Assembly: GCF_029909975.1 (NCBI RefSeq)
Contig: NZ_CP094516.1
Span: 1,488,001-1,552,000 of the forward strand
Reading direction: 5' to 3'
DNA length: 64,000 nucleotides
From: Bradyrhizobium sp. ISRA430
GTDB taxonomy: Bacteria > Pseudomonadota > Alphaproteobacteria > Rhizobiales > Xanthobacteraceae
Of the stretch, positions 18,246 to 55,927 are shown piece after piece. Positions within the stretch are counted from its first letter, which is position 1, and the number at the start of each line of letters is the position of its first letter. Below the pieces are notes generated by a model. It was not told the origin of the DNA and did not search any database. It saw nothing but the letters and a program-made list of their open reading frames with translations. Made by a program: the position numbers and the translations under genes.

Positions 18246-18536
18246 TCACACCACGGCCCCATAGATACCGCGTGCTATCTCTAAGCGTATCGATAGCTCG
18301 TTGACCTGTGTGTAATCGATCTCGGCGCGCGTCAAGCCGATGTCCATCAGCTCCCTGTCACTCAGGTCCTGCAAGCTGGCTCGCAAGCTCTGGCGTTGGC
18401 GCCGCTCCTGAAACGCACGCCAATATCGCTGGAGCAAGGCTCGGACGCTCCGCGGCGATGCGATGGATACGTCGAGACCAAGCCCTGCGGCATCGCGCTC
18501 GGTCTCGGAACTGATGTTCGTCTGTTGGGGTGGCAT
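18246..18536 (-). CDS. DUF1127 domain protein, long N-terminal form
   Basis: A 96-residue protein with a DUF1127 helical motif at about 35-75 (RYWRAFQERRQRQSL, LQDLSDRELMDIGLTRAEI). DUF1127 proteins such as RSP_6037/CcaF1 are small Arg-rich proteins, and some bind RNA and affect RNA turnover or phosphate/carbon metabolism. Here the N-terminal 30 residues are an additional polar segment. AGGAG before the ATG at 18536 fixes the start. A second DUF1127 gene is at 19538. Confidence 0.85.
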   Translation of the reverse strand: MPPQQTNISSETERDAAGLGLDVSIASPRSVRALLQRYWRAFQERRQRQSLRASLQDLSDRELMDIGLTRAEIDYTQVNELSIRLEIARGIYGAVV

Positions 18537-19075
18537 CGGATGCTCCTGCTGTTGCGCCGGCAGGGAGCGTGGCCAAACAAAAGGCCCCGTCCGATGCCGG
18601 CGGGGCCTGGTGAAAAGATGTCGTCGTCGAACTCCTAGCGCGCGACTCCTTCCACGGCCCAGCCGAAGCGGGTCATGTGAATGCTGTTGAAGTTGCGCAC
18701 TGATTTGTTCATCACGTGCTGATACCACGACGATCGTCTAAAATCAAGGGATGTGAGGAAGCCCGTTACATCCTGGAGGCGAGTCGCCTCGGCCCAGCGA
18801 AATTCTGTGCAGGGTAACCGATAGGTTGCCGCTGGCCTCAACGTCCGCCTTTGGCCCCAGCGAAGCGACGCGCATCTGATGGAGATCCGCCTAGTGGGGC
18901 ATGGCGGACTAGATTTGCTGAGCTTGAGTTCTTTGCATTTTGTCCCGATTGCAGACATCGCCTCCGCCGGGCACGTGCAAAGAATCTCGACACAATCCTA
19001 TGGTGAGCCGTTGTTGTACTACATCTACCAGTTAGGAGGTAGTTTTGGGGCTCAAAAAGATATTTTGCACACGCC
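18537..19075. other. Intergenic stretch with relic sequence
   Basis: This 539-base stretch between the DUF1127 and split hydrolase genes is AT-richer toward the right (from about 18900). On the minus strand a frame beginning MSAIGTK (18958) resembles spurious frames in common Bradyrhizobium relic repeats, and I do not call it as a gene. No RNA gene or hairpin is evident. Confidence 0.45.
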
Positions 19076-19367
19076 GTGATCCTTAATTGCCTGGCGTTTC
19101 CTGTTCGGGCGGCCGGCATCCAGTTGCTGGAATCTCCGTCGCTCGCCGGCGCTATTTGGTATCCATGCGCAGCTAAGCCGCAGGGTGTGCCACTTGGCAG
19201 CCTCGCGGTACCCTTTACGAATTCCCTTGAAGGCGCGAAGGATTGTCCGGTCACTGGCGCAAAGCTGCCTCTGGTGGTCTTCTCCCACGGTCGCGGCGGC
19301 TGGTTCGGTCTCCATCATGACACGGCAGAGGTGTTGGCTGACGCCGGCTTTGTCGTCGCAGCCATTA
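19076..19367 (+). pseudogene. Dienelactone-hydrolase-like alpha/beta hydrolase, 5' half (split gene)
   Basis: From the GTG at 19076 this frame encodes the N-terminal half of a COG4188-type predicted dienelactone hydrolase: mature start IQLLESPSLAGAIWYPC, KDCPV, then PLVVFSHGRGGWFG (the oxyanion-hole region) and HHDTAEVLADAGFVVAAI. It stops matching at 19367, directly at a TA dinucleotide, where foreign DNA begins. The matching second half starts at 24265. The signal peptide region is short and irregular, so the gene may already have been damaged at its start. Confidence 0.82.
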
Positions 19368-19467
19368 GGCTGTGTACTCATAAACCGGCGGCTAAGTCCG
19401 CTTCGCTCCGATACCAACCTCCTTTGCCAACCGCGACAAATGTCGCGATGGGCCAAAAGCAGAAGAA
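19368..19467 (-). repeat. Solo IS5-type terminal remnant
   Basis: About 100 bases that, read on the minus strand, end in TTTATGAGTACACAGCC, which resembles the transposase 3' end plus terminus of IS427-group IS5 elements (YE-[YS]-[TA] then the end). No transposase coding capacity remains. It forms the left boundary of the composite insertion. Confidence 0.5.
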
Positions 19468-19537
19468 TTTAGTCGGACAAAGGCCCGCCTTCTTTGGCCG
19501 GCCTCGTCGTGCAAGAGGCAGCCTGCTCAAGTACTAT

Positions 19538-19774
19538 TCAAGCCCGCCAGAAGGGTTTTTTGATTTCCAGAGCGATGTCGGACCAGGACAACCCGACATC
19601 ATGCAAGTCGTGGTCAGTCCATTGCGCCAATTCGCGGCGCTGCCGAACCCGCTCGCGCCAAATTTGCAGTGTGCCAAACGCGCGCTTCACTGCATAAGAA
19701 AGCTCCGAGCCGCCCGGCCCCACGGTCTTCGACATCCGGGCACCATACGAGGTCGATCCGCCCCTCCCCTTCAT
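19538..19774 (-). CDS. DUF1127 domain protein coupled to MFS gene
   Basis: A 78-residue Arg-rich protein with the DUF1127 motif in its C-terminal 45 residues (RERVRQRRELAQW, HDLHDVGLSWSDI). The ATG at 19774 lies 2 bases beyond the MFS stop codon, with AAAGGA 6 bases upstream inside the MFS gene, so the two are translationally coupled. An alternative start is the ATG at 19735. Its link to an efflux pump is unusual for a family usually found as single genes. Confidence 0.8.
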   Translation of the reverse strand: MKGRGGSTSYGARMSKTVGPGGSELSYAVKRAFGTLQIWRERVRQRRELAQWTDHDLHDVGLSWSDIALEIKKPFWRA

Positions 19775-19776
19775 CG

Positions 19777-21186
19777 TCAGTCCTTTGCTCGGCCAAGCCA
19801 GATCGCGACCGCACCGGCGAGCAACACAGCGGCCGAAATGAGCAGCGAGGCATGTGCGCCCGCAATGAACACGTTGTTGCCTCCGACCAGCGAGCCGAAT
19901 AGGGCAACGCCAAGCACGCTGCCGGTCTGCCGCGTTGCGTTCAGCACGCCCGCGGCGATGCCGGATCGCGACTTCTCGACACTGCCGAGCAGCGTCGAGG
20001 TCAAGGACGGCACGAGCAGGCCGAGCCCGCCGCCGAGGACCATAAGCTGAGTGCCGATCGCCCCGTAGCTGGTGCCTGAGGCCACAGGCAGCAGCGCAAC
20101 GCAGCCCGCGGCAGTGATCACACAAGCCAGTGCAATGGTTTGCGGCGCGCCGAGGCGCTCGCTCACCGATGCGGTGACGAGGTTGGCGGGCAGCACCATG
20201 CCCATCATGGGCACGAAGGCGAGTCCTGTTGCGAACGGCGACCAGCCGTTGACCTCCTGGAAGTAGAGACTGAGCACGAAGATCAGGCCGTAGAAGGCGA
20301 TGTTGAAGAGGAGCCCGACCAGAGCGGTCAGCGCAAACATGCGGTGGCGGAACAGCGAGAGTGGCAGCATCGGTTGTGGCGCGCGCGCCTCGCGCCATAC
20401 GAACAGGACTCCGATCACGGCCGATGCCACGAAGCCCATGATGACGCGCGGATGGCTCCAGCCGAGCACGCCGCCTTCGATCAGGGCGCCGGCCAGCGTG
20501 CCGAGGGTTGCAATCGCCGTGATCTGTCCCGGCAGATCGATCTCGCGCTGCGCGAGCCGCGGCGTCTCCTCGGCATAACGCCAGGCAAGCCAGAGGCCGG
20601 CGGCGCCAATCGGCAGGTTGACGAGAAAGATCGCGCGCCAGCCGACTAGCGCGATCAGCGCGCCGCCGACGAACGGCCCCGAAGTCAGTGCGACGCTCGC
20701 ACCTGCGGCCCAGAAGCCGACCGCGCGGCCGCGCGCCTTCGGATCGGTATAGGTATGATTGAGCAGCGTCAGCGAGTTCGGCACCAGGATCGCTGCTGCC
20801 AGGCCCTGCACGGAGCGTGCGGCGATCAGGAATATCGCCGACGGCGCCAGCGCGCAGGCGAGCGAAGCCAACGTGAAGATCGCAAAGCCCGCGATGAATA
20901 TCCGTTTGGCGCCAATGCGGTCACCGAGCGCGCCGGAGGTCAAAATGAAGGCCGCGAATGCGATGGTGTAAGCGGTCACGACCCATTGCAGCTCGGCCAC
21001 GCTACCGCCGAGCGAGGTGCCGATGCTGCTCAGCGCAGTATTGACGATGGTGATATCGAGCTGCACTACGCCAAGGCCGAGGCTCGTGGCAGCAAGTGCC
21101 AGCGCCGTCGCGAGAGGCGAACGGGATGACGTGTTGTCGGAGTGGGCTAGTTCCGGCTGCCTTGTATTGAACGAAGTTGTTTGCAT
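19777..21186 (-). CDS. MFS transporter, DHA2 (EmrB/QacA-type) drug efflux
   Basis: Protein of 469 residues with 13-14 hydrophobic segments, as in the DHA2 family. Motif C-like SGPFVGGALIALVGWRAIFLVNLP near 165-190 and the motif A-like GALGDRIGAKRIFIAG near 85-100 are present, with motif D1-like LDITIVNTAL near 44-53. It should export a hydrophobic compound using proton motive force. Length is a little short for 14-TM members, but both ends look complete. It is divergent from an ArsR-like regulator and followed by a coupled DUF1127 gene. Confidence 0.88.
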   Translation of the reverse strand: MQTTSFNTRQPELAHSDNTSSRSPLATALALAATSLGLGVVQLDITIVNTALSSIGTSLGGSVAELQWVVTAYTIAFAAFILTSGALGDRIGAKRIFIAGFAIFTLASLACALAPSAIFLIAARSVQGLAAAILVPNSLTLLNHTYTDPKARGRAVGFWAAGASVALTSGPFVGGALIALVGWRAIFLVNLPIGAAGLWLAWRYAEETPRLAQREIDLPGQITAIATLGTLAGALIEGGVLGWSHPRVIMGFVASAVIGVLFVWREARAPQPMLPLSLFRHRMFALTALVGLLFNIAFYGLIFVLSLYFQEVNGWSPFATGLAFVPMMGMVLPANLVTASVSERLGAPQTIALACVITAAGCVALLPVASGTSYGAIGTQLMVLGGGLGLLVPSLTSTLLGSVEKSRSGIAAGVLNATRQTGSVLGVALFGSLVGGNNVFIAGAHASLLISAAVLLAGAVAIWLGRAKD

Positions 21187-21247
21187 TGATCACACTCAGT
21201 TTCCTGTAAGAATTTGACGGCCCAGATCAGCCCGCTTTGCGATGGTC

Positions 21248-21265
21248 ATTCGATACCAATCGAAT
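21248..21265. promoter_or_regulatory. Candidate ArsR operator palindrome
   Basis: A perfect 7-bp inverted repeat, ATTCGAT-ACCA-ATCGAAT, lies 62 bases upstream of the MFS start and about 170 bases before the regulator start. ArsR-family dimers bind AT-rich inverted repeats of this kind. Assignment to this regulator is inferred from position only. Confidence 0.45.
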
Positions 21266-21435
21266 ATTCGGAGCCGCGGGATGATCTTTCGCCTCATCGC
21301 GGGACTTCCTTCACCGGGCCTGTTGGCGTCCAGGCAACCTATGTCTCGTGATCGAACCAGTCTCGCGGAAACACTACGGTCTTGACCGAAGTATTCGTGC
21401 TTGGCACTGCGTCCTTATCGGCGTACGAGAAGGGC

Positions 21436-22215
21436 ATGGACACGGGACCCAAAATCGCCCAAGTCGCAGCACTCATCGGCGACCCGGCGCGCGCCAACAT
21501 GCTGAGCGCGCTAATGGACGGCCAAACGTTGACCGCCTCGGAGCTCGCGTATGTGTCTGGCGTGGCGCCGCAGACAGCGAGTGGCCATCTTGCGAAACTC
21601 AGCGACGCGGGATTGCTCGCGCTCGCAAAGCGGGGCCGACGACGATATTTCCGCCTGGCCTCTCCGCACGTCGCGCGCGTGCTGGAAGGTCTCATGGTCG
21701 TGGCGCAGGACGGCCCCGCCCGGCAGCGCAATCTCTGGCGCGGTGGAGAAACGCTCCGGTACGCTCGCACGTGCTATGACCACATGGCCGGCCGCATCGC
21801 CGTCGCAATCGCCGACCGGCTGGTCCAACAGTCGTTTATTCTGCTCGACGAGGATGGCGGGCAACTCACCGATGCCGGCCGGTTATTCTTCAATGAGTTG
21901 GGCGTCGATCTTCGCCTCGCCTCCAAGCGCCGGGTGTTCTGTCGTCCCTGTCTCGACTGGAGCGAGCGCCGGCCGCATCTGGCCGGGGCGGTCGGCGCCG
22001 CCATTCTTGATCACGCTCTCCAGCACAATTGGGTCGAGCACGTCAGGGATAGCCGAGCGCTCGTCGTAACCCCAGTTGGCGTTAGAGAGCTCGCCGCAAC
22101 GTTCGGCATCGAGGGCGCACCCCCGATGGACGGTCACGATGGGCGTGTTGGATCAGTCTCCGGAGGCCGGGTATCAGCTATAGCGGTCGAATCAGCGTCC
22201 CTCGGACGGAGGTAG
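21436..22215 (+). CDS. ArsR/SmtB-like winged-helix regulator
   Basis: Protein of 259 residues from ATG 21436. Residues 1-80 are the winged helix (ALIGDPARANMLSALMDG, LTASELAYVSGVAPQTASGHLAKLSDAGLL, RRRYFRLA). The remaining 120 residues are an extended domain containing CRPCLDWSERRPHLAGAVGAAI, conserved in this long ArsR subgroup. The metal-binding ELCVCD box is missing, so it probably senses an organic ligand. The last about 30 residues after LAATFGIE look like read-through of a lost stop. A TTG at 21382 could extend the N-terminus by 18 residues. Divergent from the MFS pump it probably controls. Confidence 0.8.
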   Translation: MDTGPKIAQVAALIGDPARANMLSALMDGQTLTASELAYVSGVAPQTASGHLAKLSDAGLLALAKRGRRRYFRLASPHVARVLEGLMVVAQDGPARQRNLWRGGETLRYARTCYDHMAGRIAVAIADRLVQQSFILLDEDGGQLTDAGRLFFNELGVDLRLASKRRVFCRPCLDWSERRPHLAGAVGAAILDHALQHNWVEHVRDSRALVVTPVGVRELAATFGIEGAPPMDGHDGRVGSVSGGRVSAIAVESASLGRR

Positions 22216-22318
22216 TAGCGCGATTAGCCACTTTCGGCGGTGGGGACCGGAGCTGAGCGCGAAGTGTTGCGATTGGCCAGACCCCTGTGATTCAAGCTCC
22301 CAAACTGGGGCTCGAATC

Positions 22319-23078
22319 ATGCGCTACGAACTCGCTGATCATGAATGGGTTGCCATCAAGCCCATGCTGCCCAATAAGCCTCGTGGCGTTCCTCGGGTAA
22401 ACGGCCGACGTGTGCTCAACGGCATCTTCTGGGTCTTGCGATCCGGGGCACCTTGGCGCGATTTGCCGGATCATTTTGGCCCGTACACGACCTGCTACAA
22501 CCGTTTCGTCCGCTGGCGACGAGCTGGTGTCTGGGGCCGCATCATTGACGCACTTGCCGTAGCCCACGATGCCGCTGTCCAGATGATCGACACCTCCATT
22601 GTCCGCGTGCATCAGCATGGAGCCTGCATCACACGAAACAAGCGCCAATCGATGGGGAGGTCACGCGGCGGCTTGACGAGCAAAATTCATGCGGTGGTAG
22701 ATAGCAATGGTCTGCCGGTACGGCTGGCGTTGAGCCCCGGCGAGGCGCACGACGTTCGACTTGCGGGAAAGCTGCTGTCTCGCCTCAAATCTGGGTCAAT
22801 GCTGCTGGCCGACCGCCGCTATGACGCGGACTGGATCAGAGAGCTCGCCATGAAGAAGGGCGCGTGGGCCAACATCCCGCCGAGAAGGAATCGGAGCGAT
22901 CCGATCTGCTTCAGCCCCTATCTCTATCGCTCGCAACCAAGTCGAGCGGTTCTTCAACAGGATCAAACAATGTCGTCGGGTGGCGACGCGCTACGACAGG
23001 CTCGCTGCCAACTATCTTGCCTTCGTTCAACTCGCGTCAATCAGGCTATGGCTGCGTCTTTATGAGTCCGCGTCCTAG
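22319..23078 (+). pseudogene. IS5-family transposase, frameshifted
   Basis: The first 203 codons match the IS5 (IS427 group) DDE transposase: ELADHEWVAIKPMLP, LNGIFWVLRSGAPWRDLP, the first catalytic Asp in MIDTSIVRVHQHG and the second in LLADRRYDADW. After FSPYLYR near 22928 the frame shifts. A neighbouring frame continues with VERFFNRIKQCRRVATRYDRLAANYLAFVQL and ends WLRLYESAS at 23078, as in intact copies. A net loss of two bases explains it. The long open frame ends at 23065 with an unrelated tail. Without programmed frameshifting the enzyme is dead, since the catalytic Glu (VERFF) lies after the shift. Confidence 0.85.
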
Positions 23079-24262
23079 TCACGTGAATCTAAAGTTCACC
23101 ACATAAAGTCTGGTGGGCTTTGTGGCAGAAGCGTTTGACGGAAGCCAAGATCTGGTCAGCAGACTTGGTCCATTTGAAGGGCTTCGGATTTTTGTTGTGC
23201 AGGTCGATGAAGGTACGGATGTCGGCCTCGAGCTGCTTGACGGAGGTGTGAACACCTCGCTGGATTTGCTTTCTGGTGAGTTCAGCGAACCAGCGCTCGA
23301 CCTGATTGATCCAGGACGCAGAAGTCGGCGTGAAGTGGACATGATAGTGCGGCCGGCGAGCGAGCCACGCTTTGATCTTGGACGTCTTGTGGGTGGCGTA
23401 GTTGTCCATGACGATATGGACAGCGAGCCCCTCAGGGATTTGAGCGTCGATCTCTTTGAGGAACCTCAAGAACTCGACTGCCCGATGGCGCTTGTAGCAT
23501 TTGCCGATGACGAACCCCGAGGCGACATCGAGCGCTGCAAACAGCGTGGTCGTGCCATGCCGCACGTAGCTGTGCGTGCGACGTTCCGGCACGCCAGGCA
23601 TCATCGGCAAGACCGGCTGCTCGCGATCGAGGGCCTGAATCTGGCTTTTCTCGTCGATGCTGAGGACAAGGGCTCGGTTCGGTGGGGATAGATAAAGGCC
23701 GACGATATCGCGTACCTTGTCGACGAACAGCGGATCGCTCGACAACTTGAATGTCTGGCTACGGTGCGGCTGCAAGCCGAACGCCGACCACATTCGGCGG
23801 ATGGTGGTGTGGGAAAAGCCAGTTTCCGCCGCCATCGAGCGGATCGACCAGTGCGTCGCGTCGGTCGGCGTCGTCCGCAGCGTCCGCTCGATCACGGCGG
23901 CAACCTGATCGTCGTCGATGGTGCGAGGGCGGCCAGGGCGGGCTTCGTCAAGCAGGCCATCACAGCGATCCTTCAAGAATCGGCGGCGCCACTTGCCAAC
24001 GGTGTGTTCGTGAAGGCCGAGTTCGGCAGCTACAGACTTGCTGGGCAATCCATCCGCGCATCGCAGGATCGCGCGGCACCGCTCAGATAGCGACCGGGCA
24101 ACACGATGACGACGAACTTGCCTCTCCAAGTACGTCCGCTCCTGCGGACTAAGCACCAACGGCGCAATCGGCCGGCCTCGCACACCTGCATTCGCCACTG
24201 GCGCTCTCCTCTCTAGAGATTCGAGCAATCAACTAATGCGACGAATTTGCGTTCCAGACGAC
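23078..24262 (-). mobile_element. IS630-family insertion sequence
   Basis: A 1185-bp element flanked by TA dinucleotides at 23076-23077 and 24263-24264, the usual IS630 target duplication. Its ends, beginning GTCACGTGAATC at the left and GTCGTCTGGAAC on the minus strand at the right, agree at 13 of the first 23 positions. It contains one intact transposase gene. It lies exactly between the right end of the composite insertion and the resuming hydrolase gene. Confidence 0.7.
23089..24198 (-). CDS. IS630-family transposase
   Basis: Protein of 369 residues. The N-terminal helix-turn-helix includes SERCRAILRCADGLPSKSVAAELGLHEHTVGKWRRRF. The DDE catalytic core shows Asp in VLSIDEKSQIQ, Asp in IVMDNYATHK and Glu in WINQVERWF. 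All three residues are present and no stop interrupts the gene, so it may be active. The frame is open from a TTG at 24228, but AGGAG seven bases before a GTG at 24198, followed by MANAGVRGRP as in relatives, is the better start. Confidence 0.9.
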   Translation of the reverse strand: MANAGVRGRPIAPLVLSPQERTYLERQVRRHRVARSLSERCRAILRCADGLPSKSVAAELGLHEHTVGKWRRRFLKDRCDGLLDEARPGRPRTIDDDQVAAVIERTLRTTPTDATHWSIRSMAAETGFSHTTIRRMWSAFGLQPHRSQTFKLSSDPLFVDKVRDIVGLYLSPPNRALVLSIDEKSQIQALDREQPVLPMMPGVPERRTHSYVRHGTTTLFAALDVASGFVIGKCYKRHRAVEFLRFLKEIDAQIPEGLAVHIVMDNYATHKTSKIKAWLARRPHYHVHFTPTSASWINQVERWFAELTRKQIQRGVHTSVKQLEADIRTFIDLHNKNPKPFKWTKSADQILASVKRFCHKAHQTLCGEL

Positions 24263-24264
24263 TA

Positions 24265-24905
24265 GTCATCCGGGCGACAACGGCAACGATACCTCGCAAA
24301 GCGAAACCCTGTCAGTCTGGGCTTCACGGCCGGTCGACATGGTTCGCTTACTCGATTTCATGTTGAAGGATTGGAAGGACAGAGAGGCTATTGACCCGTC
24401 CAGGATTGGGTTCTTCGGCTTTTCGAAGGGCGGCTATACGGGGCTGGTGCTCGAAGGTGCCACTTTCGATTTCCAGCGCACTGCATCCTACTGCACCGAC
24501 AACTCTCGATTTTGCCAGCAGGTTCGGAGCGGCGACGTCCTGCAAAACCTGCCGAGCGACATTCGGATCAGAGCTGCCGTGCTGGCCGATCCTGCACCGA
24601 CCGTGGCTTTCACGAAGAATACCTTGTCACCCATCCACATCCCGTTACAGGTCTGGCGATCTGAAATAGGAGCGAAAGATCGGGGAGTTGATCCGGAAGG
24701 CGTTGCGCGTGTCCTCAATGCCTTGCCGGGCCAACCCCAGGTTCATATCGTGCCAGCCGGCCACTTCGCGTTCTTGCCGCCATGCTCACCGGAGCTTGCC
24801 GCAAACTTGCCGCGCTTCTGCACCGATCCGGCGGGCTTTGATCGGGCAGCCTTTCACCGTGATTTCAACGCAAGCGTTCTAAGATTCTTTCGAGAGCATC
24901 TCTGA
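24265..24905 (+). pseudogene. Dienelactone-hydrolase-like alpha/beta hydrolase, 3' half (split gene)
   Basis: Directly after the TA at 24263-24264 the frame reads HPGDNGNDTSQSE and continues RPVDMVRLLDFMLKDW, then the nucleophile elbow GFFGFSKGGYTGL and a C-terminal catalytic His in VPAGHFAFLPPC, ending in FREHL with a normal stop. It is the continuation of the fragment at 19076-19367. Joined through one TA the product reads VVAAI-S-HPGD. A secondary start such as the ATG at 24339 would give only the C-terminal half without the oxyanion region, so function is unlikely. Confidence 0.83.
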
Positions 24906-55733: not shown

Positions 55734-55927
55734 GGTCGTCCCAAAATCAATGTCGGAGGATCGAATCGGACGGCCAAAAGGCCGGTCCGAAGTTGCGGCA
55801 GGGTTTACCCGACGAGGCCGGGGGCGGCAACCAAGGGAACGGCCTGTTTTGGGCCCGGAACGTCCATTTTTGGCCCATCAGGGCACAAGCCTTTGCCGAT
55901 CGGCGTTCCGAGCCTATCTTTAAGGCC

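Follow-up and report, generated by a model that had tools for sequence, protein, structure and literature searches.

The window analyzed here, a 64,000-nucleotide stretch of Bradyrhizobium sp. ISRA430 on a single contig of 8.56 Mb, holds a hydrolase gene interrupted by two adjacent inserts. The first of these, a 3708-bp segment at 19368-23075, is a cargo-carrying transposon and one of a large group, a point that the first-pass annotation of this DNA missed. It is very probably a unit transposon of the IS5 family that inserted whole at a TA dinucleotide, was joined later by an IS630 element, and belongs to an alphaproteobacterial group in which constant modules surround changing cargo. The ends of such units are paired and the target TA is duplicated; empty sites exist, the unit occurs at different places, and the ends stay constant while the cargo changes. 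Mechanistically, an IS5-type transposase would have cut both ends of the unit and moved it by cut-and-paste. The whole unit would then have entered a TA of the hydrolase gene with duplication of that TA, as the observed end structure and empty sites suggest, and IS630 would later have inserted into the TA on the right-hand border of the unit.

The interrupted gene

The hydrolase gene is a single reading frame split by the DNA between the first and the last TA. Its 5' part (19076-19367, forward strand, start codon uncertain) is read from its frame and is collinear with intact homologues. The 3' part (24265-24905, forward strand) has 82-88% amino acid identity to intact genes in five genomes (G172, G121, G122, G176 and G214), where the open frames span 323-341 amino acids. 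When the window flanks are joined through a single TA and aligned to seven intact loci (five at 82-88% identity, two at 66-67%), the columns around the join are gap-free in all seven. A single TA lies exactly at the join in L160 and L161, and CA takes its place in the other five.

The first-pass annotation had proposed one gene cut at a TA by two adjacent inserts with limits exact to the base, and this flank alignment bears the proposal out: rejoined, the flanks correspond to uninterrupted genes in the five Bradyrhizobium genomes at 82-88% identity. The empty site with a single TA that it called for is found at L160 and L161. TA is present, as claimed, at all three boundaries: the left target copy at 19366-19367, the junction between the larger unit and IS630 at 23076-23077, and the right target copy at 24263-24264. 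The label "dienelactone-hydrolase-like" is a loose one, because Pfam gives a weak PAF-AH_p_II match for the 5' half (E 1.3e-5) and a Pfam scan of the 3' half matched no family.

Anatomy of the larger insert

The transposase gene of the 3708-bp unit lies at its right (22319-23065, forward strand), 2.9 kb from the left end. The encoded protein matches the NCBIfam IS5_3 profile (NF033580, 218.7 bits against a cut-off of 110) as well as Pfam DUF4096 and DDE_Tnp_1. The unit opens with a 17-bp left terminal repeat (19368-19384, forward strand), found in the same TA-preceded form in genome G009, and closes with a right terminal repeat (23059-23075, reverse strand) recognized by inverted-repeat and end comparison. 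With the adjoining TA dinucleotides included, the arms (19366-19384 and 23059-23077) show 79% complementarity across 19 nt; together with the comparison of other copies, this upholds the earlier description of the segment as having inverted ends.

Three genes lie between the end modules. A DUF1127 gene (19538-19732, reverse strand; PF06568, E 8e-13) is followed by a gene for a 469-amino-acid MFS exporter of the DHA2/EmrB type (19777-21186, reverse strand; PF07690, E 8e-53; TIGR00711 at 227.9 bits, just below its cut-off of 230.2) and by an ArsR-type regulator (21382-22215, forward strand; PF01022, with NF033788 above its cut-off). The left end module (19368-19455, forward strand) is common to units with unrelated genes, and a motif scan places an inner edge motif at 19442-19466 (forward strand, 21 of 25 positions). 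The right end module (22241-23075, forward strand) comprises the transposase gene, its upstream DNA and the right end; its 835 bp match a Bradyrhizobium barranii unit at 91%.

The late frame of the transposase gene is broken by a 2-bp deletion that is not seen in the copies in G009 and G010. From this deletion, the transposase of the window copy is probably dead.

Copies of the unit and an empty site

A search for the unit covered 265 genomes of the genus, with two candidates scored per genome and only the best matches listed. Among the matches listed, the unit together with its transposase portion occurs in G009 and G010, and G017 has the unit's cargo without end repeats. Counting the window, the unit is present in three genomes, each time at a different site. 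The G009 copy lies at a different site, is complete from left end to right end apart from an internal deletion, and has TA on both sides. In the G010 copy (L017) a TA follows the right end, and in place of the left end there is unrelated sequence that resembles the end of another mobile element. The nearest relatives of the window unit diverge by 3-5%. Two other full copies of its transposase in the same genome are 86-88% alike, and the same genome holds two further such units, at derived positions 1158911-1163781 and 1916201-1922914.

The G009 insertion has an empty counterpart. In G080 (L287) the flanks are continuous through one TA, at 92.8% over 2471 bp, and G162 (L288) has CA at the same place, at 91.8% over 2628 bp. 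L287 is the cleanest evidence, by alignment, that the whole segment with its cargo moved as one piece. Empty-site searches for the 4871-bp unit of the window's own genome and for the L098 unit returned only short or diverged flank matches.

In the next 16 listed loci (L020-L035) the cargo genes are matched and the joined ends are not, so the window unit's cargo appears to be DNA of the genus that the unit acquired.

Several side observations concern these loci. In many genomes the DNA to the left of the G009 insertion (L287-L293) aligns with itself at several different offsets, in blocks of about 0.2-0.7 kb, and thus contains internal repeats. In L026 and L028 the window unit's cargo genes are present as chromosomal copies with a short fragment of this transposase gene (82-85%) on their left. 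L195 and L196, from two species, carry a 4690-bp unit with a shared right flank and left flanks that differ in the short stretch printed, possibly through another insertion at the unit's left TA.

Left ends are often paired with transposase loci

The left end recurs across the genus. There are 44 occurrences of the pattern GGCNGTGTACTCATAAA, spread over 38 of the 265 genomes, and none of its reversed control. Forty-two fetched regions contain 43 of these occurrences (the 44th is the window), and 28 of the 43 are preceded by TA in a manual count. A broader TA-led end pattern is present in 142 of the 265 genomes, against a single genome for the reversed control.

Starting from the transposase gives the same layout. 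Forty regions around full-length transposase matches were taken from the genus listing, 39 with about 12 kb of upstream sequence and L131 with about 6 kb. The right end followed by TA is present in 39, and a weight matrix finds a TA-preceded left end within 11 kb in 25 of the 40, compared with 1 of 40 in reversed sequence. A second set consists of 79 loci of named genomes, drawn from the best 80 of more, and was scanned with a matrix enlarged by the GTACCC variant of the left end, a variant that had been found although it was absent from the training set. Right end and TA are present at 67 of these loci and a TA-preceded left end at 40, with none in the reversed control. The counts of 25 of 40 and 40 of 79 are not independent because the training set and the loci overlap.

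Where a left end was found in the second set, it lies 786 to 7745 bp from the transposase gene. The left segment as a simple insertion sequence (IS) was accordingly tried and rejected: the distance is 2.9 kb in the window and at least 786 bp in those 40 of 79 loci. There are exceptions on the short side, namely a 1188-bp element of the Mesorhizobium japonicum plasmid pMLa, with about 450 bp between left end and gene match; Ancylobacter L235 at 769 bp, excluded from the 40 of 79 since its right end scored weakly; and L099 and L104, which have a transposase fragment only.

Beyond Bradyrhizobium, the 40 paired loci include Mesorhizobium, Microvirga, Reyranella, Limibaculum, Oricola and several metagenome genomes. 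Five of seven plasmid records show TA on both sides (Bradyrhizobium japonicum, Bosea vestrisii, Ensifer adhaerens, M. japonicum and Bradyrhizobium sp. 195, the last with an IS66 inside the unit).

These data also bear on whether the arrangement could be fortuitous, with an isolated left end, some captured genes and, at the right, an IS5 element of separate origin merely resembling a unit. Left-end sites without this IS5 transposase in the fetched stretch are indeed common, as that explanation would have it. It is nonetheless highly improbable: the unit recurs between TAs at more than one place, the empty site of the G009 insertion contradicts it barring an assembly error there, and the layout is seen in 25 of the 40 transposase copies (control, 1 of 40) and in 40 of the 79 (control, none).

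A number of observations weigh against a cargo-carrying unit transposon. No recognizable left end lies within 11 kb of 15 of the 40 transposase copies, the pairings at 8-10 kb (L126, L133 and L145) are doubtful, and no left end was found at 39 of the 79 loci, some of which have little upstream sequence. The end profile was partly trained on members of the 40, and the 79 loci overlap the genus set. Among the seven plasmid records, the B. barranii unit is without a left TA and that of Bradyrhizobium sp. 4 without a left end. Eight of ten related loci tried at the G009 site do not span the junction; several end there, so the spot is variable. In the window itself the transposase frame is broken.

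Taken alone, the pairing of the arms does not stand out from several other inverted pairs listed with it, so the unit's ends were placed by comparison with other copies.

The B. barranii plasmid unit (L046 5980-8884, NZ_CP088281.1) combines the window's left-end type with a GH17 gene and, lacking the left TA, may either have arisen as a hybrid from two insertions or have mutated.

Constant modules and changing cargo

Comparison of 34 transposase-bearing units gives 80 pairs that share both ends; among the 60 pairs printed, 4 match copies of a single unit with each other. Near-identical modules, about 100 bp at the left and about 905 bp at the right, surround unrelated genes. The units BJAP and L135, for example, match over 106 bp (95%) on the left side and 903 bp (98%) on the right side and nowhere in between, and L123 and L124 have 92 bp and 909 bp in common. 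Among the larger groups, the inner limit of the left module lies near GTCGCGATGGGCCA and that of the right module near GGGTCATTTTCGAC, roughly inverted copies of each other. The window unit keeps this inner motif at the left, and its right module is shorter.

This pattern speaks to a composite origin, in which two full IS5 copies once flanked the cargo and the left one decayed to its end. The left module and the right transposase module do resemble pieces of one element of about 1 kb, and L102 and L088 carry a reversed transposase-end fragment downstream of the left end, showing that end pieces do get captured. Random decay, however, would stop at any point, whereas in 54 of the 56 printed pairs that compare different units (manual count) the left shared part measures 85-124 bp, and it stops beside a common motif. 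Each of the 40 regions, moreover, has a single copy of the IS (BLAST, E 1e-20), and in place of two complete IS copies around the cargo the window unit has no more than an end module at its left. A composite transposon is therefore rather unlikely, and a unit transposon with constant modules is preferred.

A 25-bp edge motif built from the units has 32 matches in 103 kb inside units and 28 in 508 kb outside, compared with 3 in 611 kb of reversed sequence. The possibility that the host genome is generally rich in the inner motif was rejected: the 18-base form matches only twice in the window's own genome with up to 2 mismatches allowed, though the 25-base motif exceeds its control outside units. 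A BLAST comparison of the 34 units for a long inverted repeat between left and right modules gave one chance-like match only; the short inner motif appeared solely in the alignments and the motif scan. Far from the unit, window positions 55860-55878 match the inner edge motif with 3 mismatches, where chance would give 0.03 matches in the window.

A Pfam scan of cargo covered 50 proteins, 49 from units (chosen from 103 listed frames) plus a single one carried by the unit on the B. barranii plasmid. The cargo has no common theme beyond some small sets of regulator plus enzyme or with TctC receptors. It includes SDR with TetR proteins, TctC receptors with O-methyltransferases or a metallo-beta-lactamase-fold enzyme, adenylate cyclases, shikimate dehydrogenase, TspO and GH17 proteins, among others. 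Five of the 50 are without a Pfam match and may be wrong frames.

In eleven units (L095, L101, L105, L106, L107, L111, L114 and L310-L313) the ends match and are flanked by TA at either side, with no match to this IS5 transposase. "Transposase-free" refers here to this IS5 transposase only, the best match being 27% (E 0.29) in L312; L310 has an open reading frame that may be a transposase of another family. These 11 units show the features of mobile insertion cassettes: matching ends, target duplication, cargo and no match to this transposase. Such cassettes would need the enzyme in trans. Six others have TA on one side only (L085, L087, L090, L092, L110 and L117). L087, L105, L106 and L107, all transposase-free in this sense, have similar ends, and their cargo consists of a beta-lactamase-fold gene, an amidohydrolase gene, a caspase-fold gene and an unknown gene.

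Where similarity stops suggests that cargo is swapped at the short inverted motif on the inner module edges. Taken further, and quite tentatively, the group could form a transposon-borne gene-cassette system of Alphaproteobacteria, in which constant IS5-type modules would exchange genes or small operons at the inner inverted motif and transposase-free cassettes would be mobilized in trans. The outer half of the motif would then be fixed in the module and the inner half would sit at the cargo edge, giving a role like that of integron cassettes exercised through transposition into TA.

The IS630 element and the order of insertion

The right insert is an IS630-family insertion sequence (23078-24262, reverse strand; NF033545, 270.4 bits). 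Its 379-amino-acid transposase gene (23089-24228, reverse strand) is identified by its frame and by Pfam and NCBIfam profile matches. A second copy in the same genome, at 7142052-7143236, is 100% identical across 1185 bp and has TA on both sides, in full agreement with the limits first assigned to the element. The window copy is a recent, ordinary element, typical of its family in profile, TA flanks and identical second copy, and has no unusual feature.

The first-pass annotation also had the unit enter first and IS630 second. The three boundary TAs are compatible with either order and do not decide it alone, but the age evidence favors this part of the proposal. The IS630 copy is identical to its counterpart, and the unit is both diverged (3-5%, and 86-88% likeness among transposase copies) and damaged (the 2-bp deletion), which makes unit first, IS630 second the probable order on these comparisons. 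The reverse, with IS630 inserting first and the cargo unit then entering the TA at its left edge, fits the three TAs equally well and is unlikely in view of the same contrast between an identical IS630 and a diverged, damaged unit.

Just upstream of the split gene, the frame at 18246-18728 is presumably DUF1127-like and is additional to the DUF1127 gene inside the transposon.

Implications

If the reading of a cargo-carrying unit transposon is right, many copies annotated simply as "IS5 family transposase" in Bradyrhizobium and its relatives stand at the right end of transposons that carry genes and whose left ends, kilobases away, have been missed. Such transposons would help explain the scatter of single regulators, exporters and small catabolic operons in these genomes, and the group may be a common route for moving single genes among these bacteria.

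Comparison with known systems

By its end and target features the window unit would belong to the IS427 group of the IS5 family. It has the 2-bp TA duplication, seen from the empty sites, and short terminal repeats. Table 2 of one survey lists IS427-group elements of Paracoccus at 832-865 bp, mostly with a 2-bp target duplication and with short terminal repeats (PMC3281130). From that compact form of about 0.85 kb the window unit, 3708 bp with three other genes, departs clearly, and the 1188-bp pMLa element comes nearest to it.

The cargo-bearing IS5 group is widespread and apparently undescribed. No description of cargo-bearing IS5 elements was recognized among the matches listed in the literature searched, ISfinder and subscription papers lying outside that search, and the excerpts available of two further papers contain nothing bearing on this layout (PMC7371123; PMC11092175). 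Transporter IS (tIS) and mobile insertion cassettes are defined in the accessible portions of three papers (PMC7986276; PMC11891212; PMC3129680). Like a tIS, the window unit resembles an IS and carries genes that transposition does not require, and its ends, transposase and passenger genes behave as one unit, as the copies at other sites and the G009 empty site indicate. The tIS examples named in those portions differ in belonging to IS6, IS1595, IS1380 and IS481, with none in IS5.

The closest parallel in layout is IS231/MIC231 of the Bacillus cereus group, an IS4-family system described in excerpts of two papers as carrying passenger genes between the left terminal repeat and the transposase gene (PMC2266710; PMC1196294). 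MIC231 is activated in trans by the IS231 transposase, according to the excerpt of the latter (PMC1196294). The window's group shares the modular layout, with extra DNA between left end and transposase gene, so far as those excerpts describe it. It differs in family, target and host, being an IS5-family group that targets TA in Alphaproteobacteria, whereas IS231/MIC231 is an IS4-family system of Bacillus. The window transposase scores 26.9 against the IS4_1 cut-off of 115, and its best NCBIfam match is IS5_3. In 2008 the IS231 layout was, in the passage available, still unseen in other IS families (PMC2266710); if the reading proposed here holds, that remark becomes testable in a second one.

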